A stretch of DNA of 34,676 nt from a virus. The DNA lies in IMG/VR virus record IMGVR_UViG_3300023174_006331, positions 1-34,676 of that record; one strand, 5' to 3'. The translations under genes and the position numbers were made by a program. Positions 773 to 32,706 of the stretch are shown here, in pieces. The notes beneath the pieces were generated by a model. That model had not been told where the DNA came from, did no database searches, and saw only the letters and a program-made list of their open reading frames with translations. Within the stretch, counting starts at the first letter, position 1. The number at the start of each line of letters is the position of its first letter.

Positions 773-1765
773 CTAAATATTCTCTTTATCTCCAGAAAAT
801 ACAACATCACAATAATCTTTTAATTCTCTGGATATATACTCTTTCATGTTATCAAAATCATTAAATTTAATAAAATTCGGACCTAATTCATTATCTAATC
901 TTATTTTAAATATATTTAGTTCTTGTAAGATGTCGCATTTATTGATAATCAATTTGTTTGTTCCAGATATCCTTACAGCATTTAATAATCTATTGAAATT
1001 AAGCCAATTAACTAATCTTTTTCTACCAGTTGTAGTTCCATATTCCTTGCCTAAATCTATTATTTTATTTAATTCCTCATCTGACCATAATGACTCTGGA
1101 AATAATGGATCAACTCCACTTTTGGTATCATAAATTTTAGCTACCCCAATAATATTTCTTATCTTTTTAGGACTAAAGCCTAAAGAGCAAGCAGAATATG
1201 GCAAAGTCTCGCTACTTGTAACATAAGGATAATCGCCATAATTTAAATCTAACCAAAAACTTTGAGCACCTTCACAAAGAATATCCCCATCAAGCTCTCC
1301 ATTCCAAATATGCTTTTTATCTAAATAGTCTTTAGCAAGTTTACCTACTCTTAAAGCTTTATCAGAATAACATGGAGCAATTCCTTGACCAGTTGTTCCA
1401 AGTCTTGGTTTTAAAAACTTAAGATCATACTGAATATGTCTTTCAGTAATAATATGAGTTTTAGGACTAACTTTAATTAAGGATGTATCAAAACCTTCTT
1501 TTGAAAGATATTCTAGTTCATCAAAAAACTTATCAATATTGATAACGCAATTTGGACCAATAATTGATTTCTTATTATGAAATACTCCAGAAGGAATAAG
1601 ATGTGTTTTATATTTTTTTCCATTTAAATAAACTGTGTGACCTGCATTTGGCCCACCATTCCATCTGCATACATAATCATATTTACTAGATAAAGCATTA
1701 GAAATCTTACCCTTGCCTTCATCTCCCCAGCATAAGCCAAAGATGATATCTACTGCATTAATCAT
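773..1765 (-). CDS. purA: Adenylosuccinate synthetase (short, archaeal/phage-length form)
   Basis: Joins IMP and L-aspartate with GTP to make adenylosuccinate, the first committed step to AMP. Visible motifs: the N-terminal P-loop WGDEGKGK (13-20) with the catalytic Asp15, NAGHT (40-44) with the conserved His43, GTTGQGIAP (123-131), EGAQS (165-169), YPYVTSS (179-185), and the aspartate-binding loop GTTTGRKR (243-250). At 330 aa it is about 100 residues shorter than typical bacterial PurA and near the archaeal size. Keeping Asp15 distinguishes it from PurZ of 2-aminoadenine phages, which by family knowledge lacks that residue, so I read it as an IMP-using PurA. Its ATG overlaps the preceding stop by one base (TAATG). 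Confidence 0.93.
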   Translation of the reverse strand: MINAVDIIFGLCWGDEGKGKISNALSSKYDYVCRWNGGPNAGHTVYLNGKKYKTHLIPSGVFHNKKSIIGPNCVINIDKFFDELEYLSKEGFDTSLIKVSPKTHIITERHIQYDLKFLKPRLGTTGQGIAPCYSDKALRVGKLAKDYLDKKHIWNGELDGDILCEGAQSFWLDLNYGDYPYVTSSETLPYSACSLGFSPKKIRNIIGVAKIYDTKSGVDPLFPESLWSDEELNKIIDLGKEYGTTTGRKRLVNWLNFNRLLNAVRISGTNKLIINKCDILQELNIFKIRLDNELGPNFIKFNDFDNMKEYISRELKDYCDVVFSGDKENI

Positions 1766-14383: not shown

Positions 14384-16216
14384 ATGTGGTACTGCAACGA
14401 TAAATATAAAAAAGATTTAGTTGATTTTAATAAAGAATTATTAAAAATTGAAGGTACAATGCTGGATAAAGAAGCTAAAATAAGTTTAGCTAAATTCTTA
14501 AGAGCAAATTTAGGCTTGACTACAGAATTAATTAGTGGAATTAAACTAGCTCCATATCAGGAAGTAACATTAAAAGGATTCTTTAATCGTAATTTTAATA
14601 TGTGCGTTTGGGGTCGAGGTTGCTCTAAGTCATTTATCGCTAGCGTTTACATTTTCCTTCAATGCATATTTGAACCTAATTCTAAAATCTTAATTGCTGG
14701 GCCAACATTTAGAACTGCTAGAAATATTTTTACAAATTTAGAAAAATTAGTAAATAGTAAAGAAGCTCAATTGCTTCAACAAGCTTTTGGAGTTAAGAGT
14801 AAAAGAAATGATTTATTTGAATGGGAGATTAATGGTGGAAATATTGTAGCTATTCCTCTCAATGGTGAAAAAGTTCGAGGATTTCGCGCTAATGTTCTTG
14901 TTCTTGATGAGTTTCTACTTATACCAGAAGAAATTATTAAAAATGTTCTTATGCCATTCTTGGTTGCTCCTCAGAATATGAAAGAACGTATTCAAATCAG
15001 GGAAATAGAAGATAAATTAATTGCTGAAGGGATGATGAAAGAAAATGAAAGAATGATATTTCCAAACAAATCAAAAATGATTGCTTTATCTTCTGCTAGT
15101 TATACATTTGAAAATCTTTATAAAACATATCAAGAATGGGTTGCCAATATTTATTCTGATGAAGCCGTTAGAGATGCTACATATTTTGTAAGTCAAATGG
15201 GATACGAATCTCTGCCAGAAGAAATGGTTGATAAAACTATTATTGAAGAAGCTCAAGCTGGTGGATTGAGTCATAGCGGTTTCTTACGAGAGTATTGTGC
15301 TCAGTTTACAGATGGAAGTGATAGCTATTTCTCAGCAAAGAAGATGCATGAATGCACGATCAAAGATGGTGAAAATCCAACCTCTAAAATATATGGAGAT
15401 AAAGATAAAAAATATATACTAGCAATTGATCCAAGCTTTAGCAATAGTCCAAGTTCAGATTATTTTGCTATGAGCGTTTTAGAAATTGATGATGAGAAGA
15501 AAGATTGTATCATTGTTCATTCTTATGCTGTAGCTGGTGGAGATCTTAAAGATCATATCTTGTATTTTCATTATTTATTAAATAATTTTAATGTAGAGAT
15601 GATCATTATCGATAATGCTGGATATCAATTTATTGACTCTGCTAATGAAAATGAATTATTTAGAAAATCTGGAATTAACCTTAAATTCTTTGATGTGAAT
15701 TCTGACGCTGAAGGAGTAGAGTACGACTTAATGTTAAGAGATGCAAAAAGACAATACAATAAAGAAACAAAAAGAATTTGCTTCAAACAAGTATTTACTA
15801 CTGAATTTATCCGTAAAGGAAATGAATATCTTCAAGCAAGTATAGATCATAAGAAGATATGGTTTGCTAGTCGTATATCTGCAAATGGAGATTCTTTTGG
15901 AAGAGTTACTGGAAGTAATATCAATATAGAAAGTACTGGGTTTAATAATTTAATTGATTTTATTGAAAATCAAGATGATATGATTTATGCAACAAAGAAA
16001 GAATGTAGTTTAATTGAAGTAAAAAGCACTAGCCGTGGTCTTCAGTCATTTGATTTACCACAACATCTAAAAAGAAATACTAGCGCTAATAGAGCAAGAA
16101 AAGATAGATATACTGCTCTTATGCTTGGTAATTGGGCAAGTAAAATATACTATGATATGAATAAAATTGAGAATAAAATGGAAAATGATACATTTACGCC
16201 TATAATGTTAAAATAG
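14384..16216 (+). CDS. terL: Terminase large subunit
   Basis: The DNA-packaging motor, 610 residues. ATPase domain: Walker A-like WGRGCSKS at 76-83 and Walker B LVLDE at 172-176. Nuclease domain (RNase H fold): AIDPS, IIIDNAG and RKDRYTALML in the expected order, supplying metal-binding aspartates. Length and order are normal for T4-like terminases. It starts 1 base after the nuclease gene and is followed by a late-promoter motif and the portal gene, the canonical packaging order. Confidence 0.95.
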   Translation: MWYCNDKYKKDLVDFNKELLKIEGTMLDKEAKISLAKFLRANLGLTTELISGIKLAPYQEVTLKGFFNRNFNMCVWGRGCSKSFIASVYIFLQCIFEPNSKILIAGPTFRTARNIFTNLEKLVNSKEAQLLQQAFGVKSKRNDLFEWEINGGNIVAIPLNGEKVRGFRANVLVLDEFLLIPEEIIKNVLMPFLVAPQNMKERIQIREIEDKLIAEGMMKENERMIFPNKSKMIALSSASYTFENLYKTYQEWVANIYSDEAVRDATYFVSQMGYESLPEEMVDKTIIEEAQAGGLSHSGFLREYCAQFTDGSDSYFSAKKMHECTIKDGENPTSKIYGDKDKKYILAIDPSFSNSPSSDYFAMSVLEIDDEKKDCIIVHSYAVAGGDLKDHILYFHYLLNNFNVEMIIIDNAGYQFIDSANENELFRKSGINLKFFDVNSDAEGVEYDLMLRDAKRQYNKETKRICFKQVFTTEFIRKGNEYLQASIDHKKIWFASRISANGDSFGRVTGSNINIESTGFNNLIDFIENQDDMIYATKKECSLIEVKSTSRGLQSFDLPQHLKRNTSANRARKDRYTALMLGNWASKIYYDMNKIENKMENDTFTPIMLK

Positions 16217-16241: not shown

Positions 16242-18119
16242 ATGGCTAAAAAACTCCAAAAAGACGAAAAATTAACAAACTATACAACTGGTGAGCCTTT
16301 GATGGCTGTAGCAGGAATGAAAGAAATTAAAGCTTCTGATAAGCTTAGAAGAAATAGATCTGCCACCATAGAAAGAACAGATAAATACGCTAATATTACT
16401 AATGGACTAATACCATTTAATAGATCTTCTACTAGCGTTTATAGTTCTTCTAATATGGATGTTAGAGATGCAGTCATTTTATGTCAAAAGGCTTATTATA
16501 ATTTTGCAATATTTAGAAACACAGTAGACTTAATGACTGAATTTAGTTCTAGTAAAATTTATTTTAAAGGTGGAAGTCAAAAGAGCAGAGATTTTTTTGA
16601 AGCATTATTTAATAAAATCAATCTTTGGAGTTTTCAAGATAAGTTTTTTAGAGAATACTATCGCTCTGGAAATGTATTCATGTATAGATTTGATACTAAT
16701 ATTAAAGAAGATGATCTAATTAAAATCACCCAAACATTTGGTATTAGCAAAGCTGCTTCTGTTACTCTTCCATCTAGATATATAATTATTAATCCAGCAG
16801 ATATTCAAATTGCTGGCAATATTAGTTTTGTTACCAATAAATTTTATAAAGTATTAAGCGATTATGAACTAGAAAGACTTCGTAGCCCAAGAACAGAAGA
16901 AGACAAAGAAGTATACGAATCATTACCTCAAGACGTTAAAGATAATATTCAAAAGAAAGCTAATGTTGCAATTATGCCATTAGATTCTCATAGATTAGTT
17001 GCTGTATTTTATAAGAAACAAGATTACGAGCCATTTTCTGTTCCAATGGGATTCCCAGTTCTTGAGGATATTAATGCTAAAGCTGAAATGCGTAAAATGG
17101 ATATGGCAATTGCAAGAACAATGCAACAAGCAATTCTTCTTATTACTATGGGAACAGATCCAGACAAGGGCGGTATAAATCAAAAGAATCTTGAGGCTAT
17201 GCAAGCTCTATTTCAAAATGAAAGCGTTGGAAGAGTTCTAATTGCAGATTATACAACAAAAGCTGAATTCATTGTTCCTCCAATTGCAGATCTTCTTGAT
17301 CCTAAAAAGTATGAAGTAATAGATAGAGATATTCAAATTGGTTTAAATAATATTCTTATTGGAAGTGAAAAATTTGCTAATACAAGTATTAAGGTGCAAG
17401 TATTTATTGAAAGATTAAAACAAGCAAGAGAAGCTTTTATTAATGAGTTTCTTGCTCCAGAAATTATTCGAATGAGTAAAAGTCTTGGATTTAAAAATTA
17501 TCCAATGCCATATTTTGAAGATATTGATTTGAAAGATGATATTCAATATTCTAGAGTTTATAATAGATTAATGGAACTCGGAATATTAACTCCAGAAGAA
17601 GGTCTCAAGGCTATTGAAAGTGGTAGATTACCAGATGCAGATTCTTCTATTGAAAGTCAAAAGAAATATAAAGCATTAAGAGATCAAGGATATTATCTTC
17701 CTGTTATTGGTGGAAATCAACAAGCTGGTGGTAGACCAACTGGAAGTACTGGAACACCTCAATCAACAAAGAATGTAAGTCCTATTGGTGCTGGTAAACA
17801 ATCTAAAGCAGAATTTAGTGCTAAAAAAGTTGGAGAGAATTTTGTTCTTGCATCTAAATTAGAAGATCATGTATCAGATTTAATTAAAGAAAAATTTAAA
17901 ATTAAAAAATTAAATAAACAACAAAAAACTATTGTAAATGATATTTCTAAAATGATTGTATCTAATGAAGATTCTGTAAAATGGATTGAGAGTGCTGCTA
18001 GTTATATTGAAAATCCAATTGATAAAAATAAAGAAAATATAAATGAAGTTTTAGAAATTGCAGAGAATCATCAAGTAGACTCTTACATTGCCAGCATATT
18101 AAGAAATAGTAAAGTTTAA
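16242..18119 (+). CDS. Portal protein
   Basis: A 625-residue protein in the portal position directly after the large terminase. The size is right, and the middle has typical portal features: an alpha/beta stem-side region (SGNVFMYRFD; LPSRYIIINPADIQIAG), a long helix with MDMAIARTMQQAILLITMG, and the following LDPKKYEVIDRDIQIGLN and FANTSIKVQVFIERLK, which match T4-like portal proteins of large phages. The C-terminus has a Gly/Thr/Gln-rich linker and a lysine-rich helical tail. It forms the dodecameric DNA entry ring. It ends in a 3-base overlap with a convergent minus-strand gene. Confidence 0.85.
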   Translation: MAKKLQKDEKLTNYTTGEPLMAVAGMKEIKASDKLRRNRSATIERTDKYANITNGLIPFNRSSTSVYSSSNMDVRDAVILCQKAYYNFAIFRNTVDLMTEFSSSKIYFKGGSQKSRDFFEALFNKINLWSFQDKFFREYYRSGNVFMYRFDTNIKEDDLIKITQTFGISKAASVTLPSRYIIINPADIQIAGNISFVTNKFYKVLSDYELERLRSPRTEEDKEVYESLPQDVKDNIQKKANVAIMPLDSHRLVAVFYKKQDYEPFSVPMGFPVLEDINAKAEMRKMDMAIARTMQQAILLITMGTDPDKGGINQKNLEAMQALFQNESVGRVLIADYTTKAEFIVPPIADLLDPKKYEVIDRDIQIGLNNILIGSEKFANTSIKVQVFIERLKQAREAFINEFLAPEIIRMSKSLGFKNYPMPYFEDIDLKDDIQYSRVYNRLMELGILTPEEGLKAIESGRLPDADSSIESQKKYKALRDQGYYLPVIGGNQQAGGRPTGSTGTPQSTKNVSPIGAGKQSKAEFSAKKVGENFVLASKLEDHVSDLIKEKFKIKKLNKQQKTIVNDISKMIVSNEDSVKWIESAASYIENPIDKNKENINEVLEIAENHQVDSYIASILRNSKV

Positions 18120-18985
18120 ATATTAAAAATATTTTTAAATTTATTAAATAATTGTTCTGTTTGTTTAATCTTATATAAATTTTTATCTATCGTCTCAAAT
18201 GGATATTGCCAATAAAGACTAGTTGTGCCTGTGCTATATTCACCATAATACAATAATTCTGTATTATGTTTTTGCTTGAAATATTCTATAAGTTTTTTTG
18301 AGATACTCTTTTCGTTTAATTTTTCAAAATTAAATTGTTTAAAATTATAATTAAAAACAATTATAATTTTCTGTGTTCCATCTTCTAATTCTGTCACTTC
18401 CATATGATTTATATTTTCTATATTCTCATTGATTGAATATTTATTTAAAAAATATTGAATATCATTTTTATCAAAATAATAAAAATATAAATTTTTCTTA
18501 AAAGTGTTGTTAAAATATTCTACAGATACTCCAAAAAAAATTGTATTTTTTTCTTTAAAAGTATTTGATTCTATAAATTCATTTAATGGTTCTTTAATTT
18601 TTAAATGAAAATATTGCTTCATTTCATAATCTCTATTAATTTTGATAGCAAAACATGAATGAGATTGTCTTGAGGAATCTATATAGTTTATATAATATTT
18701 GAATAAATTTACATCAGGAATAAATTTTAATATTATATTATCCGAATAAGATTCATTTATTTCACAATATATTTTAAAATTTTTTATTTTATTATTATCT
18801 ATATTCATGCTTATTAAATTAGATAAAGGTCTTAAATCTTTTTTGTCTTTTCTGGACCTGTCTATTGAATTAATATTTAATATAAAATCTTGAACAGATT
18901 TTAATTTATAAAATTTATAAAAAATTTTATCAAATATGTAATATTTTTCTTGTTTATTAAAATTTAAATCAATTCTTTGTTTCAT
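18116..18985 (-). CDS. Hypothetical protein of the A+T-rich island (289 aa)
   Basis: Unknown protein very rich in Asn, Lys, Ile, Phe and Tyr, as expected from extremely A+T-rich DNA. No signal peptide, membrane segment or known motif is evident. The pattern looks like a mixed alpha/beta soluble domain (KLIEYFKQKHNTELLYYGEYSTG near the C-terminus). It overlaps the next gene by 4 bases, so it belongs to the same transcription unit as the glycosyltransferases and may be a partner of, or a virion protein modified by, those enzymes. That link is inference. Confidence 0.65.
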   Translation of the reverse strand: MKQRIDLNFNKQEKYYIFDKIFYKFYKLKSVQDFILNINSIDRSRKDKKDLRPLSNLISMNIDNNKIKNFKIYCEINESYSDNIILKFIPDVNLFKYYINYIDSSRQSHSCFAIKINRDYEMKQYFHLKIKEPLNEFIESNTFKEKNTIFFGVSVEYFNNTFKKNLYFYYFDKNDIQYFLNKYSINENIENINHMEVTELEDGTQKIIIVFNYNFKQFNFEKLNEKSISKKLIEYFKQKHNTELLYYGEYSTGTTSLYWQYPFETIDKNLYKIKQTEQLFNKFKNIFNI

Positions 18986-19632
18986 AATAAAAATATATTA
19001 TCAAATACTTTTGGCCAACTATTTAAAATAACTTCAGATGGATTGCTCCCTGTAATAACAGAATTATTTACTTCTTGATCTATCATCTCTAAAAAACTTT
19101 GTACATAAGATTTTATTGTCGGATCATCTGCATCGTAATCTAATGATAGATTATTTATTTTATTAATATAATATGGTTTGATTTTGTCTTTTAATAAATT
19201 TTTATAAATTTTTATATAATTTTCTATATTCTCATTTTTATATAAATCTAATGAATTTTTAAAATTAAAAGGTATCATAAACATAGAATACGAATCTGAA
19301 CAATAAATAATATAATCTTCATGATGTTCATATGAAATGTAGTATTCATTTTTTAAAAAATCTATTTTATTTTTTTTAGATATAATATTTTTTATTTTTA
19401 ATTGTAAATCTTGATTTTGTTCGTTTTTTTCGCAATGTATGAAACCATTAATTTTATCAATATCTAAATATAAATCTTTATTAAACGCTGGATTTAGTCC
19501 ATAAAGTTTTTTATTATCTTTTATAGATATAAATTTAAATGGAATTTCAAGATTAATATCATCATCTTTTTGATATTTTATTAAGCAAATTTGGTCTTTT
19601 AGGTTAATGATATTTTCCAATAATTCATTCAT
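18982..19632 (-). CDS. Hypothetical protein, paralogue A of the island (216 aa)
   Basis: Unknown 216-residue protein related to the one at 21155-21832. Shared blocks are INGFIHCEKNEQ versus IKGFICAENKSQ, YYISYEHHEDYIIY versus YNISYTYDDKYILY, MFMIPFNFKN versus IFMLPFNIKN, and NSWPKVF versus YNWPKVL near the C-terminus. The family is unknown to me. The two copies bracket two glycosyltransferase genes, which hints at a role in the same process. A late-promoter motif at 19641-19649 precedes the start on the minus strand. Confidence 0.65.
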   Translation of the reverse strand: MNELLENIINLKDQICLIKYQKDDDINLEIPFKFISIKDNKKLYGLNPAFNKDLYLDIDKINGFIHCEKNEQNQDLQLKIKNIISKKNKIDFLKNEYYISYEHHEDYIIYCSDSYSMFMIPFNFKNSLDLYKNENIENYIKIYKNLLKDKIKPYYINKINNLSLDYDADDPTIKSYVQSFLEMIDQEVNNSVITGSNPSEVILNSWPKVFDNIFLL

Positions 19633-19635
19633 ATA

Positions 19636-20373
19636 TTATAATTTACACATTATATCTTTATATAAAAAATTAAATGTTTCTGATTCTGATTTATACCAGC
19701 TATTCATACACATATGAATAGATATTTTTTGTTTATCATTAGTATTGTCTTCCATTTTATTTATGTAAAGATATTCATCACCATAAAATATATCATATTT
19801 ATTAATAATATCCCTGCTTATCTCATGCATATAAGTTAAATAGATTGGTCCAGTTTTAATTAAAGTAAAGAATGGGTCTTTAATTTTGCCTCCGCAATAG
19901 TTTGCCTTTACAAGTTCTAATGGTATATTATAGTTTAAAGAATCTAATAATCTTTTAAAAAAAAGATTATTTTTTTCTGAACCAAGTATGCAATTAGCAA
20001 TAGTAATATTTTTACCATAAAAAAATGGACTATATTCTGCGCTTTCATAAAAAAAACATAAATTGTGCTTATTTAAATTGATATAAGTATTTATTGGTTT
20101 TAAGAAAAAAAAGTCTAAATCAAAATAAAATCCACCAAATAAATATATTATAGCATATCTAAATATATCAGCTTTTTGTCCATTATTTTCGCACTTATCA
20201 ATTAAAGGATATATATTTGGAAGTTCTATTTTTATTAATTTTATGCAATCTTCATCTGTCCAAAATTTATACTCCCAATCTTTATGTAAATTTTTTATAT
20301 TATTTATGTTTTTTTCAAAAAAAATTGATAAATTTTTATTTTTCCAAGTCTGATGAATTATTTTTGGAATCAT
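19636..20373 (-). CDS. Glycosyltransferase with DXD motif, GT32/OCH1-like
   Basis: A 245-residue enzyme starting MIPKIIHQTWKNK, the N-terminal signature of the GT32 (Gly_transf_sug) family. The catalytic region QKADIFRYAIIYLFGG then FYFDLD (about 66-87) has the metal- and nucleotide-sugar-binding Asp-Leu-Asp at 85-87 and the conserved R-Y-x-x-L-x-x-x-G-G context. The fold should be GT-A, using a UDP- or GDP-sugar. It overlaps the GT31-like gene by 4 bases, so the two may act in sequence on one glycan. The acceptor is unknown; tail-fibre genes are the nearest candidates. Confidence 0.82.
   Translation of the reverse strand: MIPKIIHQTWKNKNLSIFFEKNINNIKNLHKDWEYKFWTDEDCIKLIKIELPNIYPLIDKCENNGQKADIFRYAIIYLFGGFYFDLDFFFLKPINTYINLNKHNLCFFYESAEYSPFFYGKNITIANCILGSEKNNLFFKRLLDSLNYNIPLELVKANYCGGKIKDPFFTLIKTGPIYLTYMHEISRDIINKYDIFYGDEYLYINKMEDNTNDKQKISIHMCMNSWYKSESETFNFLYKDIMCKL
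19641..19649 (-). promoter_or_regulatory. Late-promoter motif within the glycosyltransferase island
   Basis: Reading the minus strand, TGTGTAAAT at 19649-19641 lies 17 bases from the ATG at 19632. It sits inside the last codons of the upstream GT32-type gene, so it could give the downstream pair its own late transcript. Confidence 0.5.
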
Positions 20374-21158
20374 TTTTTTGAAGATAAAAAATATTTATTT
20401 AAAAATATAAAATCTTTACAAAGTTTTAATCTATCTTCAAAATTTTTATTTTTTATCATTTTTTTTAATAAAATTACAGGTATTGGATGAAAATGTATAT
20501 TTAAATTATCTATGCCATAAAATGTATGATCAAAAAATATATATTTTATATCTAAAATTTTATGATTAATTTTACTACATACATATCCTACAGCTATATC
20601 TTCTTGAGGAATTGCTGTTATATCTATATTATTTTCATTTATAATTTTTTTTGCAGTATTTAAAATGTTAATAATTAAATCTCTAGAAAAAATAACAAAA
20701 TTTCCTTCGGTATAATCAAAATCTACATTTTTTATTTGTTTTAAATAATCAAAATTATAATTTTTTCTCAAATTGTTTTGTTTAATGTATTTTTTGTATG
20801 AATTTTTAACAGTTAACATATGATTTTTTAAAGAAGCTCTTTTACCAATTATATCATAATTTTTTGTATCTATTTTTTTTAACTCATCTATATCTATAAA
20901 AGTATCATCATCTATTTTAACAAGATATTCTTCTTCTCTATGCTCTATAAAATATTTAAATAATAAAAATGTTTTTTTTGTTAAATTAGAATAGCAATCA
21001 CTAGTATTTAAACAAACAGATTTATCATGATTTAGCTTATCTGTTCCATAAAAATATATATAATTATCAAAATTATAAAATTTAAATAAATCATCGTAAT
21101 GCTTTATGAAATTAAAATTTTTTGGACATGTCCCAACTGCTATAAGAAAATCTTTCAT
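20370..21158 (-). CDS. Glycosyltransferase, GT31/galactosyltransferase-like
   Basis: A 262-residue GT-A type enzyme. Evidence: LLFKYFIEHREEEYLVKIDDDTFIDIDEL with the metal-binding Asp83-Asp84-Asp85, then EGNFVIFSRDL and PQEDIAVGYVC, the order seen in beta-1,3-galactosyl/N-acetylglucosaminyltransferases (GT31) and fringe-like enzymes. There is no membrane anchor, unlike eukaryotic members. It lies between paralogue B and the GT32-like gene with 4-base overlaps on both sides. Sugar and acceptor cannot be read. Confidence 0.75.
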   Translation of the reverse strand: MKDFLIAVGTCPKNFNFIKHYDDLFKFYNFDNYIYFYGTDKLNHDKSVCLNTSDCYSNLTKKTFLLFKYFIEHREEEYLVKIDDDTFIDIDELKKIDTKNYDIIGKRASLKNHMLTVKNSYKKYIKQNNLRKNYNFDYLKQIKNVDFDYTEGNFVIFSRDLIINILNTAKKIINENNIDITAIPQEDIAVGYVCSKINHKILDIKYIFFDHTFYGIDNLNIHFHPIPVILLKKMIKNKNFEDRLKLCKDFIFLNKYFLSSKK

Positions 21159-21832
21159 TTTTTTAAAAAATCTATAGTTAAAAATGGATTAGGCGCTAAT
21201 ACTTTAGGCCAATTATATTTAATTAAATCTATTGGAGTATCTGCTATAAATTTTTGATTTTTATTAATATCGTTAATTTTATGTATGATATTGCTTTTTT
21301 GAATTTGAATATCTTTATTATTATTAAATTTTTTTATTATATTTAGTAATTTTAATTTTGTACATTTGCTATATTTTTTAATAAATTTTTTATATATATT
21401 TGTATATAAATTTAAATTTTGATTAGAGTTTAATAAATCTATATTTTTAATATTAAAAGGTAGCATAAAAATTGAATCTATACTGGGATTATATAATATG
21501 TATTTATCGTCATAAGTATATGATATATTATATGTATTTTTTAATTTTTTTAATAAAGTTTTTTTATATTTAATTGTGTTAATTTTATTTTTTATATCTT
21601 TGTATTGGCTTTTATTTTCTGCGCAAATAAAACCTTTTATATTTTTTAATATTAACCTAGTATTTTTTTTAGTTATAAAATCAAATCCTTCAATATAATT
21701 TTTTGAAATTAAAAAATTATTTTTATATAAAAATGGTATTTCTAATTCAAAATTATCTCCATCGAATATGTATTTAACAAAACAATATTTATTAAAAGAA
21801 CATTTAATTAATTCTTCAATTAATGGTGTCAT
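21155..21832 (-). CDS. Hypothetical protein, paralogue B of the island (225 aa)
   Basis: Related along its length to the protein at 18982-19632 (shared GFI-C-E-N, IxYxxDxYIxY, FMxPFN and NWPKV blocks) but more lysine/asparagine-rich and diverged. No family recognised. The N-terminal half is beta-rich, the C-terminal half helical and basic. A variant of the late-promoter motif (AATGTAAAT, 21866-21858 on the minus strand) lies about 34 bases from its ATG inside the upstream gene. Confidence 0.65.
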   Translation of the reverse strand: MTPLIEELIKCSFNKYCFVKYIFDGDNFELEIPFLYKNNFLISKNYIEGFDFITKKNTRLILKNIKGFICAENKSQYKDIKNKINTIKYKKTLLKKLKNTYNISYTYDDKYILYNPSIDSIFMLPFNIKNIDLLNSNQNLNLYTNIYKKFIKKYSKCTKLKLLNIIKKFNNNKDIQIQKSNIIHKINDINKNQKFIADTPIDLIKYNWPKVLAPNPFLTIDFLKK

Positions 21833-21836
21833 TATT

Positions 21837-22421
21837 TTATAAATTCCAAAAGAAATTATTTACATTATACGATACAGAATTATATGTAACATAATTTGTA
21901 CCATATGTTGTTTCGTAGCATCTTACTAAAAGAGAAAAATCAACACTAGTAGAATTATCTCTTAATGTTAAATTATAATCACCTCTAGTATTTGTAAGAT
22001 ATGTTCCTGCTAAAGTAGTCCATGAAGCTGTGCCTCCACTACTAATAGTTTGTGTTGCGAAAGATCCAAGAGTTAAAGATATTGTTGAAGCACCGCCACC
22101 TTCCACTTTTAGATCTAATCTTCCATTGTTTAAATTATGATATGTTCCATTACTACCACAATTATTAAAAAGAGAAATAGTAGCTTTCCAAACAATACCG
22201 CCTCTACATTGACTAAAGCTTATGCTAGAAGGTGAACTTGTTACTGTATCGTTAGAAACAAGTGAAGTAAAAAAATTTCTTATATTAGTATTTAAATTAG
22301 TTTCAATATTTTGTGTTGTGCCAGATCTAAAATTTCTTACATAATTTAAACTTTTTCCAACTCCTTGAGCACTACCAACAGAAATTGGCCCTGATGTTGC
22401 GGTTGTATTTATGTAGCTCAT
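21837..22421 (-). CDS. Probable tail-fibre-associated structural protein (194 aa)
   Basis: A Ser/Thr/Asn/Gly-rich protein with short beta-strand repeats and few charged residues, like many adhesin or fibre-tip proteins (for example VEGGGASTISLTLGSFATQT and NYNLTL-like strands). It contains three Cys residues. No family recognised. It lies 2 bases after the S74 tail-fibre gene in the same direction, so I infer a virion surface or receptor-binding role. Confidence 0.6.
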   Translation of the reverse strand: MSYINTTATSGPISVGSAQGVGKSLNYVRNFRSGTTQNIETNLNTNIRNFFTSLVSNDTVTSSPSSISFSQCRGGIVWKATISLFNNCGSNGTYHNLNNGRLDLKVEGGGASTISLTLGSFATQTISSGGTASWTTLAGTYLTNTRGDYNLTLRDNSTSVDFSLLVRCYETTYGTNYVTYNSVSYNVNNFFWNL

Positions 22422-24158: not shown

Positions 24159-25760
24159 TTACTTGGCGTAACCATAGAGATAAAGTGTGCCAGCATCCAT
24201 AACATAACTTGCTACTGCAGTAAATATAGAAATTGTAGTGCTTGCGTTAGTGATTCCATAAATTTTTTGATAAACAGAAGAGATTCCATTGTCACTCAAC
24301 CAATCTGAAATAGATGTACCCACTCCAGTATTAAGATCTAGAAAAACAAAAGCTCGGTTTGAAGTACTTGCGCTCCCTGTATGTACCATAATTGTCTGTG
24401 AATCTCTTGTTCCTGGAACTGAAGCACCCATACCAACTCTAGTATTAGTTGCGTTGCTAGTAGAAACTCCAGTAAATATCATATACAAAAAATAATAAGG
24501 ATTTAAATTTAAACCTGATATAGTATATGTTGCTCCACTTAAACTATAAGCGTTAATATACTTAAGCCCATTACCAGCTGTTGTAGCTGTTGACGCATTT
24601 CCAGTTACATTTCCAGTCAAAGGACCACTAAAAGCCCCTGCATATATTGTGTTGGCTACACGCACATTGTTGTCGCCGTTTCCAACTGAAAAGATTTCAG
24701 TGGCCCAATCTGAGTTGTTGTAAAAGCGAGTGCCTCCGTAACCAAAGTACGCTCCTATCTTTATACCTGTATGATACCCAATACACAAATCTGGGTAAGG
24801 ACTAGTCCAACTACCTCCTTGTTGGTAAATTGCGTAACTGCTTGGAATAGCCCCATTGCCAGAGTCACTGCCTACACCAGTAAAAGTTATAACCTTAAAT
24901 TGGGTAGAGGTGTCTGAGACAAGCGAACTTGCTGATGTCGCTGATGTCGCATTTCCACTTAGAGCTCCACTAAATGTTGTAGCAGTTAAAACTCCTGCTC
25001 CACTTAATGTAGCAATATTAGTTGTTCCTGCATACCATTTAAATTGAGAAACACTAGTTGGTACACTAGACCATAAAGTAGCGCTTTCAATTCCAAAAGC
25101 ATAATCTACAGCAGCACCCGCTACCGCAGGATATAAAACTATTCTTGTACCAGCACTTCTTGTTGTAAATGCTGGAGCAGCAACGCCATTTGTATTAAAA
25201 TCAATTCTATTTCCAGTAGCACCATTTAAATAAATTTGTCCACCACCAGTTGCTGTATCATTTGCTCTAGTGCTAATATATGATCCAGTTGAAACTGTAA
25301 CATTCCCACTCGAATCAATGCGAAGGCGTTCAACACTATTTGCAATAAGCCCAAGAGTACCATCTGCTGGCCTTGTAATTGCCGCATCAACCGCTGGGGC
25401 TGAAGCAGTATTAGCAGTTAGACTTAAATATGTAACACCAGCCACTCCGTTAACGTCTAGCTTGCGAGATGGAGTAGTCCCAATCCCAACATTCCCACTC
25501 GAATCAACAGTAAGTCTTGATAGCTCATTATCCTTGTCATAAATAAAAAATAATCCGCCGCCTTCTGATGCACCTGTTCCAGTGCTTCGCAATTCATAAG
25601 TTTTGCTACCCTTAATTTGAACTGATGGGCCGCTTGAGTTTAATGTCTCAAATAGGGCTGTTCTGTATTCTGAGGATGGTGCTTTTACATTCAATGCAAA
25701 TGCAGGACTCGCAGTCCCAATCCCAAAGTTATCATTTAATATGAATGAATTTTGACCCAT
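24159..25760 (-). CDS. Tail fibre protein, repeat-rich (533 aa)
   Basis: A 533-residue Ser/Thr/Gly/Ala-rich protein with repeated fibre-type elements: IGTASPAFALNVKAPSS, VDSSGNVGIGTTPSRKLDVNG, RLRIDSSGNVTVSTG, and LTGNVTGNAS-like repeats before a C-terminal beta-rich head (residues about 400-533). The GNVGIGTT type repeat is typical of fibres that often carry S74 domains, but none is visible here. The C-terminal head is the likely receptor-binding part. The gene is the first of the minus-strand fibre cluster and has a late-promoter motif upstream. Confidence 0.85.
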   Translation of the reverse strand: MGQNSFILNDNFGIGTASPAFALNVKAPSSEYRTALFETLNSSGPSVQIKGSKTYELRSTGTGASEGGGLFFIYDKDNELSRLTVDSSGNVGIGTTPSRKLDVNGVAGVTYLSLTANTASAPAVDAAITRPADGTLGLIANSVERLRIDSSGNVTVSTGSYISTRANDTATGGGQIYLNGATGNRIDFNTNGVAAPAFTTRSAGTRIVLYPAVAGAAVDYAFGIESATLWSSVPTSVSQFKWYAGTTNIATLSGAGVLTATTFSGALSGNATSATSASSLVSDTSTQFKVITFTGVGSDSGNGAIPSSYAIYQQGGSWTSPYPDLCIGYHTGIKIGAYFGYGGTRFYNNSDWATEIFSVGNGDNNVRVANTIYAGAFSGPLTGNVTGNASTATTAGNGLKYINAYSLSGATYTISGLNLNPYYFLYMIFTGVSTSNATNTRVGMGASVPGTRDSQTIMVHTGSASTSNRAFVFLDLNTGVGTSISDWLSDNGISSVYQKIYGITNASTTISIFTAVASYVMDAGTLYLYGYAK

Positions 25761-30472: not shown

Positions 30473-30994
30473 GTGATAGTAACCGATAAAGATATATCTT
30501 ATCTTTCTAAAAAACTTAATCTATCTGAAGAGAAGACCTTCTGTTTAATTGATGATCCAGAAGCAGTAGAAAAAATACTAATAAAAGTAGCACAAGAAGA
30601 TTTGCATGGAGGTGAAGTAGTAGACATTAGTTTTCCACTTTATACATGTTTATGCATTTTAAAATATAGTGAAGATTTAAAATACGATTTTAACGAGAAA
30701 GAATATATAAGTGATACTATAAGTAAAAAATATCCTACAATAAGTAATGACAAGCTTGAAGAAGAATTTATTTTAAATATAAAAAAGAATGAAGATACTG
30801 CTCAATACTTTACTGTGTTCTTAGGGTTCTTTCATAAAAAATTGGATAGACCAAGAAGGTGCTATCCAGATCAAAAGATTTATTATACTATAGCTAAAGA
30901 AGGTTACAATAATTCAAACCGAGAGAATATAGCTTATCATTTAAATAATTGGATTAAAGTTTTAAGAAGAATCAATACTGAAATTTGGTTCTAA
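30473..30994 (+). CDS. Hypothetical protein (173 aa)
   Basis: Unknown acidic, mostly helical protein beginning (from GTG at 30473) MIVTDKDISYLSKKLNLSEE. No motif recognised; residues DRPRRCYPDQKIYYTIAKEGY form a conserved-looking block near the C-terminus. A TGTAATA motif at 30460-30466 lies only 13 bases before the start codon. It is the last plus-strand gene before the RNA region. Confidence 0.6.
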   Translation: MIVTDKDISYLSKKLNLSEEKTFCLIDDPEAVEKILIKVAQEDLHGGEVVDISFPLYTCLCILKYSEDLKYDFNEKEYISDTISKKYPTISNDKLEEEFILNIKKNEDTAQYFTVFLGFFHKKLDRPRRCYPDQKIYYTIAKEGYNNSNRENIAYHLNNWIKVLRRINTEIWF

Positions 30995-31034
30995 ATCTTA
31001 TCTTAATTATTATACTTTTCTTTAATATCCCATA

Positions 31035-31278
31035 GAAGACTTTCCCTCATATATAATATTGAGGTTGTATCTAGTATATAGTCCCTACTTTTCTTTTAAC
31101 TCCCATTTTCCTCTTGCGAGGAAACAGACTACGGCATTTATAGAGGCGAGGTGGCTTACCTCTGTTACATTGCCGTCCCTTACAGCCACACATTAATTCC
31201 CAAGCCATCTTATGCACAAGGGAAGTTTTCATAGTCGCAAGTCTTCACAGCGTTGCTATCTCTTGGAACTATATACTA
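31035..31278 (-). ncRNA. Candidate structured non-coding RNA (strand inferred)
   Basis: The gap 30995-31386 holds a segment visibly richer in G+C than anything around it and full of complementary strings. Two long-range helices interleave as a pseudoknot: an 11-bp pairing of 31072-31082 with 31268-31278 (TAGTATATAGT/ACTATATACTA) and an 8-bp pairing of 31035-31042 with 31239-31246 (GAAGACTT/AAGTCTTC). Local hairpins include 31107-31124 (7 bp), ACGGCA/TGCCGT (31131-31177) and CCTCA/TGAGG (31045-31064). Read on the minus strand, the 7-bp hairpin has a GCAA (GNRA) tetraloop, which favours that strand. The interleaved helices and a UGUAACAGAG string recall the P2/P4 core of RNase P RNA, but the conserved CR-I sequence is not in place, so I do not call it RNase P. 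Confidence 0.5.
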
Positions 31279-31386
31279 AACAGTTTTCTATAAAACTATC
31301 AAAATTGCCTATAATTAGAAGGCTATGTCAATTGGTATGATATAAAGAACTTAGAAATTTGTCAAATGTTTTTATATAATTTTTTT

Positions 31387-31602: not shown

Positions 31603-31635
31603 TGCGTGTAAGGTAGTTTATAGTTCTTTCTAATT

Positions 31636-32054
31636 GGGCCCGTAATGGTTTCGATTTTAAAAAATGGAATTGAAATGCAAGTAGAGTTGAAGTAGACTCT
31701 TTAAACAGCTTCAAAAACACTTAACTGCCAAAACAGCTAAGCTAAAAGGTAGTTTCTCATTGAGAGTTTCTCACAATAAGAAGCACCTAATCGCAGCCTA
31801 AAAATCTGCGACCTGTTACCTATGACACATCTAATAGAATAATGGGTATTTAGATGTATGTCTTTAAATCCTTTTTATTTAATTTTTAAAGATATTATTC
31901 AGGGTGGATATGGCTAAGGTTGTATTCATTTTTAAATAAATAGCTATAGCTCAATTGCTTATTCGACACTACAGCGAAATAACGGAATAAGATAAACTTG
32001 TAGTATTTTAATTTGACTTTTTAAAAGACAAGAGTTCAATTCTCTTCGGGTCCA
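31636..32054 (+). ncRNA. ssrA: Transfer-messenger RNA (tmRNA), one-piece
   Basis: A complete phage tmRNA of 419 bases. The acceptor stem GGGCCCG (31636-31642) pairs with CGGGTCC (32047-32053) and includes the G3-U70 pair that marks alanine charging; discriminator A is 32054 and CCA is not encoded. The T arm is AAGAG/CTCTT with loop TTCAATT. Upstream, TAAACTTGTAGTATT matches the 3' P2 region of bacterial tmRNA. PK1 is visible near nt 48-78 (stem AGAGT/ACTCT, pseudoknot TTGAAG/CTTCAA). The resume codon is GCC at nt 92 (31727), close to nt 90 in E. coli. The tag of 24 residues starts AKTAKLKG and ends KHLIAA; its TAA (31799-31801) sits in the hairpin CGCAG/CTGCG, as in E. coli. Confidence 0.93.
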
Positions 32055-32097: not shown

Positions 32098-32400
32098 ATG
32101 GCTAAATATTTTAGAGAAGTGGGATTTGAAAATGTTGCATTAACAGCAAGCTCTTCTATAAATGGATCATTAATTATAGCTGCACCTGGAGCAGGATTGA
32201 GTATATACTTACTTGGAGCTTCTACTTTTGATGATATCAGACTGCATGAAACAAATGGCTCTGGAGCAAATATAGTAAATATAGGTGGAGGAATGTCTAA
32301 TTTTCCATCTACAATAAAAGTAACAGAAAATACAGGAGTTTGGCTTGTGACAACTGCAACCGCTGGAGTAACTCTTTTTTACTACATAGACAACTCTTAA
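32098..32400 (+). CDS. Small probable structural protein, tandem paralogue 1 (100 aa)
   Basis: Begins MAKYFREVGFENVALTASSS and is rich in Gly, Ala, Ser and Thr with alternating hydrophobic strands (SIYLLGASTF; TLFYYIDNS at the end), consistent with a beta-sandwich such as a decoration or fibre-tip protein. It aligns along its length with the next gene. The frame is open upstream, but a late-promoter motif occupies 32081-32089, so the ATG at 32098 is preferred. Function inferred from composition and location next to head genes only. Confidence 0.65.
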   Translation: MAKYFREVGFENVALTASSSINGSLIIAAPGAGLSIYLLGASTFDDIRLHETNGSGANIVNIGGGMSNFPSTIKVTENTGVWLVTTATAGVTLFYYIDNS

Positions 32401-32418: not shown

Positions 32419-32706
32419 ATGGCAAAATATTATAGAGAAGCAGGTTTTGAAGGAGTAGCGCAAGTTGCTAGTTCACTTACATCTGGAGTACTAATATCTG
32501 GTCAAGGAGCAAATACAACAATTTATTTACTAGGAGCAAATGCTCACGCAAATACAGTTTTAAAACAAAACAATAACAATGGATCAATCATAGCTTATAT
32601 CGCAGCTGGTAATTCTGATTTTCCAGCAACAATTGCAGTAACTGGAAATAATCATATCTTCTCATCAGGAAATGATGCATGTTCTTTATTCTATTACGTT
32701 GAGTAA
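32419..32706 (+). CDS. Small probable structural protein, tandem paralogue 2 (95 aa)
   Basis: Begins MAKYYREAGFEGVAQVASS and shares with paralogue 1 the start, the TxYLLGA block, the DFPATIAVT/NFPSTIKVT block and the LFYY end. It is polar, Asn/Gly/Ala-rich and probably beta. It should be a repeated, abundant surface protein if it is in the virion. The following gene starts 3 bases after its stop. Confidence 0.65.
   Translation: MAKYYREAGFEGVAQVASSLTSGVLISGQGANTTIYLLGANAHANTVLKQNNNNGSIIAYIAAGNSDFPATIAVTGNNHIFSSGNDACSLFYYVE

Follow-up and report, generated by a model that had tools for sequence, protein, structure and literature searches.

A conserved structured RNA gene was identified beside the tmRNA gene in a clade of uncultured freshwater phages. 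The stretch of DNA that was analysed (the window) is the 34,676-base virus record IMGVR_UViG_3300023174_006331 of IMG/VR, positions 1 to 34,676, and the RNA gene lies almost certainly on its minus strand. As judged from the alignment of relatives, selection acts at the RNA level, and several helices were shown. The RNA is a new family with a narrow known distribution, of a kind that is already known, the free-standing structured phage RNA.

Genomic setting of the RNA gene

The features of the locus are as follows.

31014..31331, minus strand: conserved structured RNA gene (nine distinct full-length sequences, 98.8% of cells pair)
31337..31365, minus strand: predicted promoter, TTGACA (31365-31360), 17-nt spacer and TATCAT (31342-31337), 11 of 12 consensus matches
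31636..32054, plus strand: neighbouring tmRNA gene (ARAGORN and Rfam RF00023)

The RNA is flanked by two plus-strand genes, one ending at 30994 (30473-30994) and the other starting at 31366 or 31387. The open reading frame list contained no frame of at least 60 aa over the RNA locus. The G+C content was about 0.45 in the RNA core and about 0.28 in the surroundings, which agrees with the raised G+C described in the sequence-only reading of this DNA. That reading had placed a structured RNA at 31017-31290; a conserved RNA is present there, but its limits are wider, with conservation reaching from about 31014 to 31331. Its idea of an RNA locus was a fair one, since wherever a relative's flanks are complete, the RNA and the tmRNA lie side by side in the same position. 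P0005 (31366-31602), a small gene divergent from the RNA, was missing in relative L004, so P0005 is not required for keeping the RNA.

Distribution and conservation

Searches with P0004, the protein of the adjacent gene, and with exact DNA patterns located relatives in nine further public viral contigs. Ten copies of the RNA were obtained, namely the window, eight full-length relatives and one fragment at a contig end (L006/L011); the nine distinct full-length sequences, window included, form alignment A3. These copies supply the homologues on which the sequence-only reading had made its structured RNA depend, and the helices are kept through their variation. All copies were found in one phage clade and at the same genomic place. 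Where TerL was known, the TerL of RNA-bearing relatives was 88-98% identical to that of the window. No RNA copy was detected by model R1 in marine relatives with a TerL 67-71% identical, whose available contigs are fragments, and one marine relative had a tmRNA in a different setting, without the RNA. Since the contigs of relatives with a TerL of about 70% identity held no copy, the gain or loss of the RNA may be datable. The TerL gene of the window (14384-16216) had 393 matched stretches in IMG/VR and points to a large clade of uncultured aquatic phages; among named phages, no TerL relative above about 25% identity was found. A blastn search against named phages and plasmids returned short AT-rich pieces only, or nothing.

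A pattern scan of GTDB gave nine 17-base matches, none of which was confirmed by the model (0/9), and the same was true of five further matches of a shorter pattern in viral contigs (L026-L030). There was no copy in 398 genomes from the phylum of one Burkholderiaceae MAG, a phylum chosen for convenience and not as host, where a positive control was impossible. A weak model match of 20 bits in an actinobacterial MAG fell within the gene of a 303-aa era-like GTPase and was rejected as chance. A literature search found no description of the RNA at minus-strand 31331-31014.

In the most diverged relative, identity to the window was 85%, 85%, 79% and 65% for the RNA, the tmRNA, nrdB and P0004, respectively, and the indels among relatives within the RNA were 1-3 bases. 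The constraint on the RNA is therefore about that on the tmRNA and stricter than that on the adjacent gene P0004. Such a constraint, close to that of the tmRNA, implies a function of importance during infection.

Secondary structure and covariation

The proposed structure consists of the following elements, listed from the 5' side.

31307..31323, minus strand: hairpin H0, GCCU/AGGC, invariant in nine sequences and compatible with pairing
31289..31303 with 31034-31021 (3' strand 31021..31034), minus strand: closing helix P1, 14 pairs, 100% paired
31279..31300, minus strand: alternative leader hairpin GAUAGUUUU/AAAACUGUU, which excludes P1 and pairs in 9/9 sequences
31265..31280 with 31070..31085, minus strand: long helix A, 16 pairs, 97.9% of cells paired
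31247..31259, minus strand: hairpin hp1, AUAGC-AAC-GCUGU, stem invariant
31239..31246 (GAAGACUU) with 31035..31042 (AAGUCUUC), minus strand: candidate helix B, 8 bp, invariant, which would make a pseudoknot with A
31197..31224, minus strand: hairpin H6, stem UUCCC/GGGAA, four of five pairs change two-sidedly
31184..31189 (GUGGCU) with 31156-31151 (AGCCAC, in the H8 loop), minus strand: candidate strand of a second pseudoknot, suggestive
31131..31176, minus strand: helix H7, ACGGCA/UGCCGU, invariant, enclosing H8
31142..31163, minus strand: hairpin H8, a covarying stem under a nearly invariant 12-nt loop
31107..31124, minus strand: hairpin H9, UUUCCUC-GCAA-GAGGAAA, two pairs with two-sided changes, weak
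31045..31064, minus strand: hairpin hp2, CCUCA/UGAGG, whose AT-rich loop varies in length

In the proposed structure, 665 of 673 minus-strand cells (98.8%) paired. This agreement is somewhat inflated because the alignment used for the test had also served, in part, to derive the structure. Thirteen pairs showed two-sided changes, a number reached by 0/500 shuffles, and slid pairings gave at most 3 such pairs. Because related sequences can mislead shuffles, a tree-based null was added, in which the consensus was evolved along the inferred tree under HKY+I+G, with no structural constraint, to give 500 alignments. The simulated alignments had a mean of 1.5 and a maximum of 6 pairs with two-sided changes, compared with the 13 observed (0/500). 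Departing cells still paired in 84% of cases, compared with 37% in the tree-based null. For the single helices, the observed numbers were reached by 0/500, 0/500, 1/500 and 6/500 null alignments for A (five pairs), H6 (four pairs), H8 and H9, respectively. The H9 signal is weak, because 6/500 null alignments reach it and ten helices were considered. There is almost no variation in H0, P1, hp1, B and H7, with which the alignment is no more than compatible. The bias in choosing the structure cannot account for the number of two-sided changes seen in A and H6.

The 11-bp long-range helix reported from the sequence alone proved to be real and longer than stated, up to 16 bp: 11 of the 16 paired columns of helix A form an uninterrupted Watson-Crick run. 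There were at least five local hairpins, where at least three had been counted before, with H6 and H8 well beyond the tree null. The H6 stem was replaced by CCUCA/UGAGG in L012 and L015 and by CUUCU/AGAAG in L014. In H8, two pairs of the stem changed on both sides (AGAGG/CCUCU became AGGAG/CUCCU), while the 12-nt loop, (U/C)AA(G/U)CCACCUCG at 31158-31147, hardly changed. The GNRA loop that had been noticed on the minus strand is that of H9, with GCAA or GAAA in eight copies, but it is not strictly conserved and reads AAAA in L014, the most diverged copy. In hp2, 97.8% of cells were paired and the changes were one-sided only.

P1 and the leader hairpin are mutually exclusive and about equal in energy, with one supporting change each: a single-sided change from G-U to G-C in L014 for P1, which had no two-sided change, and a two-sided change from G-C to A-U in L015 for the leader hairpin. 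A switch between the two may be possible.

Candidate pseudoknots

Both of the helices that had been described as interleaved, of 11 bp and 8 bp, exist and the long one covaries, but the pseudoknot is unproven. In 200 dinucleotide shuffles, a Watson-Crick helix of at least 11 bp was found in 7/200 and helices of at least 8 bp were found at 0.76 per shuffle; in a single sequence, the long helix is thus notable and the 8-bp helix is not. The case for the long helix is settled by its five pairs with two-sided changes between relatives. Since helices of this length are expected by chance and B never varies (invariant in 9/9), the interleaving is not proven. Helix B competes with the nested pairing AGACU/AGUCU, and its energy balance is about neutral after the displaced pairs are counted. 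However, helix B stays plausible because its 3' strand is invariant and without another good partner. The contact between GUGG(C/A)U and A(G/U)CCAC in the H8 loop is suggestive only: GUGG and CCAC are invariant, and the variable pair is C-G in five sequences, A-U in L015 and an A.G mismatch in three.

Strand and promoter

The predicted promoter proves little as a single match, since 13 promoter-like sites were found in the region and 10.0 were expected. The relatives keep both hexamers (TTGACA and TAT[CTG]AT) and the 17-nt spacing, while the spacer sequence drifts. The conserved block begins just where a transcript from this promoter would begin, which would put the RNA start at about 31330-31328. 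The 3' limit is taken to lie where conservation is lost, and no terminator was found at the 3' end. Of the paired minus-strand cells, 65 were G-U; read on the plus strand, the structure had 604 of 673 cells paired. The G-U pairs and the promoter, conserved while its spacer drifts, place the gene on the minus strand.

The region might instead be a plus-strand cis element that belongs to the upstream operon (last gene 30473-30994) and forms its terminator or a structured 3' region; the minus-strand fold would then be its mirror image. This would suit its position right after a plus-strand gene, and the folding energy of the plus strand, too, is better than that of shuffles (z = -3.6, and -4.2 for the minus strand). 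However, the 65 minus-strand G-U cells are A.C mismatches on the plus strand, with only 4 cells the other way, and this asymmetry makes the plus-strand reading unlikely. It also gives no role to the invariant 5' leader and leaves the conserved minus-strand promoter aside, so that we regard it as improbable.

GTGTAA was found within 30 bases before the start in 9 of 43 phage genes, where 0.2 would be expected, and was often followed by a TATAAT-like string, for example at genes 28178, 29286, 32098, 32419, 16242 and 24159-25760 (minus). It was also located before the tmRNA (31606-31611). GTGTAA is probably a phage promoter motif or expression signal. Shine-Dalgarno motifs were near background in the 43 phage genes. 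GTGTAA was absent upstream of the RNA, which hints at synthesis by an unmodified host polymerase.

Proposed nature and role of the RNA

We regard the RNA as the product of a free-standing noncoding RNA gene that probably acts in trans as a folded RNA. In the model that follows, we infer its transcription, timing, trans action and partner. A host-type (sigma-70) RNA polymerase would probably transcribe the RNA from its own promoter during infection, independently of the phage's GTGTAA-marked genes. Helix A would close the hairpin domain of a compact body, probably locked by helix B and perhaps also by the loop-strand contact, and the ends would be joined by P1 or, alternatively, would carry the leader hairpin. 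Nearly invariant surfaces, among them the CCACCUC loop and single-stranded parts near H6 and helix A, may bind a host or phage protein or RNA. All copies come from one lineage, and the unpaired invariant parts could also reflect overlapping function. It is a guess that the RNA, like the adjacent tmRNA, has a role in translation during infection.

Only a few phage RNAs this complex are known, and what they do is an open question. The lake phage RNA is small enough to probe and solve, and its neighbours are simple. If a partner were found, it could show how a phage uses RNA, and not a protein, to act on the RNA or translation machinery of its host.

Further, the RNA may, though with a low probability, represent a new, compact double-pseudoknot RNA class with an activity of its own, which would be catalytic or would be to serve as the scaffold of a phage-specific ribonucleoprotein taking over a host RNA machine (e.g., RNase P or the ribosome), perhaps with the P1/leader-hairpin switch.

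It is doubtful that the RNA is a base-pairing regulator whose exposed CCACCUC loop masks ribosome-binding sites on phage or host messages. The loop is complementary to the Shine-Dalgarno sequence and nearly invariant above a covarying stem. However, it paired no better with 43 phage start regions than shuffled loops did (mean of -3.79 and -3.83 kcal/mol, respectively), the phage genes hardly use Shine-Dalgarno sequences, and GUGG may occupy the loop. The 43 start regions thus gave no support to anti-Shine-Dalgarno targeting of phage genes.

Comparison with known RNAs

The full window matched only tmRNA at the Rfam gathering score. The sequence-only reading had proposed a scan against all Rfam families; at E<=10, no family matched the RNA in four related sequences (the window, L014, L015 and L005), where only chance matches were returned. 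With no Rfam match and with covarying homologues, the evidence supports one of the three options offered by that reading, a new class.

RNase P RNA, the RNA that cleaves precursor tRNA, has a conserved region GAGGAAAGUC near its 5' end and ACAGAA with a P4 partner near its 3' end. The helix order P1, A, hairpin, B ... A', hairpin, B', P1' of the lake phage RNA corresponds to the core order P1-P2-P3-P4 ... P2'-P4'-P1' of RNase P RNA, and the string GAGGGAAAGUC at 31048-31038, after a P3-like hairpin, resembles the first conserved region. However, an H-type arrangement with insertions is common to many unrelated RNAs, the P4-like helix has no bulge, and no equivalent of the specificity domain was shown. 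The conserved regions were also out of order in A3: GAGGGAAAGUC was near the 3' and not the 5' end, and ACAGAA was not found in the matching place. In addition to the lack of an Rfam match, RNaseP_bact_a (RF00010) was silent at E<=1 in three records (G000, G012 and G007), while it was detected in 11/14 control genomes. The string UGUAACAGAG lies partly in a covarying stem and for that reason is not conserved; it was replaced in relatives by UGUACAGGAG, UGUACAGGGG and UGUAAAUGAG. A circularly permuted RNase P was mapped by hand, and one half fitted and the rest did not. The reduced RNase P RNA suggested earlier, a diverged or circularly permuted form, or a mimic binding the host RNase P protein are all highly improbable on these grounds.

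It is equally hard to credit a dual-function RNA encoding a short peptide with its ribosome-binding site masked in H9. An AUG at 31106-31104 follows GAGGAA, and the frame MGVKRKV(G/E)... (31106-31071, minus strand) was open for 11 codons in 9/9 sequences with the same stop position, TAG or TAA. However, a frame of eleven codons is short, codon and RNA constraint are indistinguishable in a stretch with so little variation, and the phage genes rarely use Shine-Dalgarno sequences.

HEARO and omega RNAs have an adjacent IscB, IsrB or TnpB gene and a variable guide segment at one end. Although the RNA is compact and possibly has interleaved helices in a pseudoknot-like topology, a guide RNA of omega or HEARO type, or the relic of one that had been suggested, is extremely improbable, with no Rfam match at E<=10, no guide-like hypervariable end (the 5' end is invariant and the 3' flank is a homologous, drifting AT-rich spacer) and no TnpB-type zinc ribbon gene (PF07282) on three records with controls working. 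PF14239, the IscB probe, had no match anywhere, control genomes included, and was uninformative.

GOLLD and ROOL are phage and prophage RNAs of unknown function with elaborate folds and predicted pseudoknots that are found near tRNA islands, and many GOLLD members exceed 800 nt (PMC12286853). The lake phage RNA shares with them its free-standing nature, an elaborate fold, predicted pseudoknots and a place near a tRNA-type gene; it differs in its length of about 300 nt, in having no Rfam match and in lying by a tmRNA and not a tRNA island. By analogy it is comparable to GOLLD and ROOL in kind, not in sequence, and it is unrelated by model. Assembly into RNA-only multimers (cages) is a feature of GOLLD and ROOL. 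The order A'-hairpin-B' in the 3' half resembles P3'-P8-P7' of the group I intron core with its P3-P7 pseudoknot, but the rest of the order misfits, there was no Rfam match, and the lake phage RNA is intergenic with its own promoter.

Other features of the window

Directly after the tmRNA, two tandem small paralogous genes (32098-32400 and 32419-32706) have a 49-base DNA stretch in common. A very A+T-rich island at 18116-22421, with 13-22% G+C over most of its length, is unlike the rest of the window and holds six minus-strand open reading frames of 194-289 aa. A phage-type adenylosuccinate synthetase gene (773-1765, minus strand; phrog_1211, named 2-aminooxy adenylosuccinate synthetase) is a lead for a modified-base (Z) genome.
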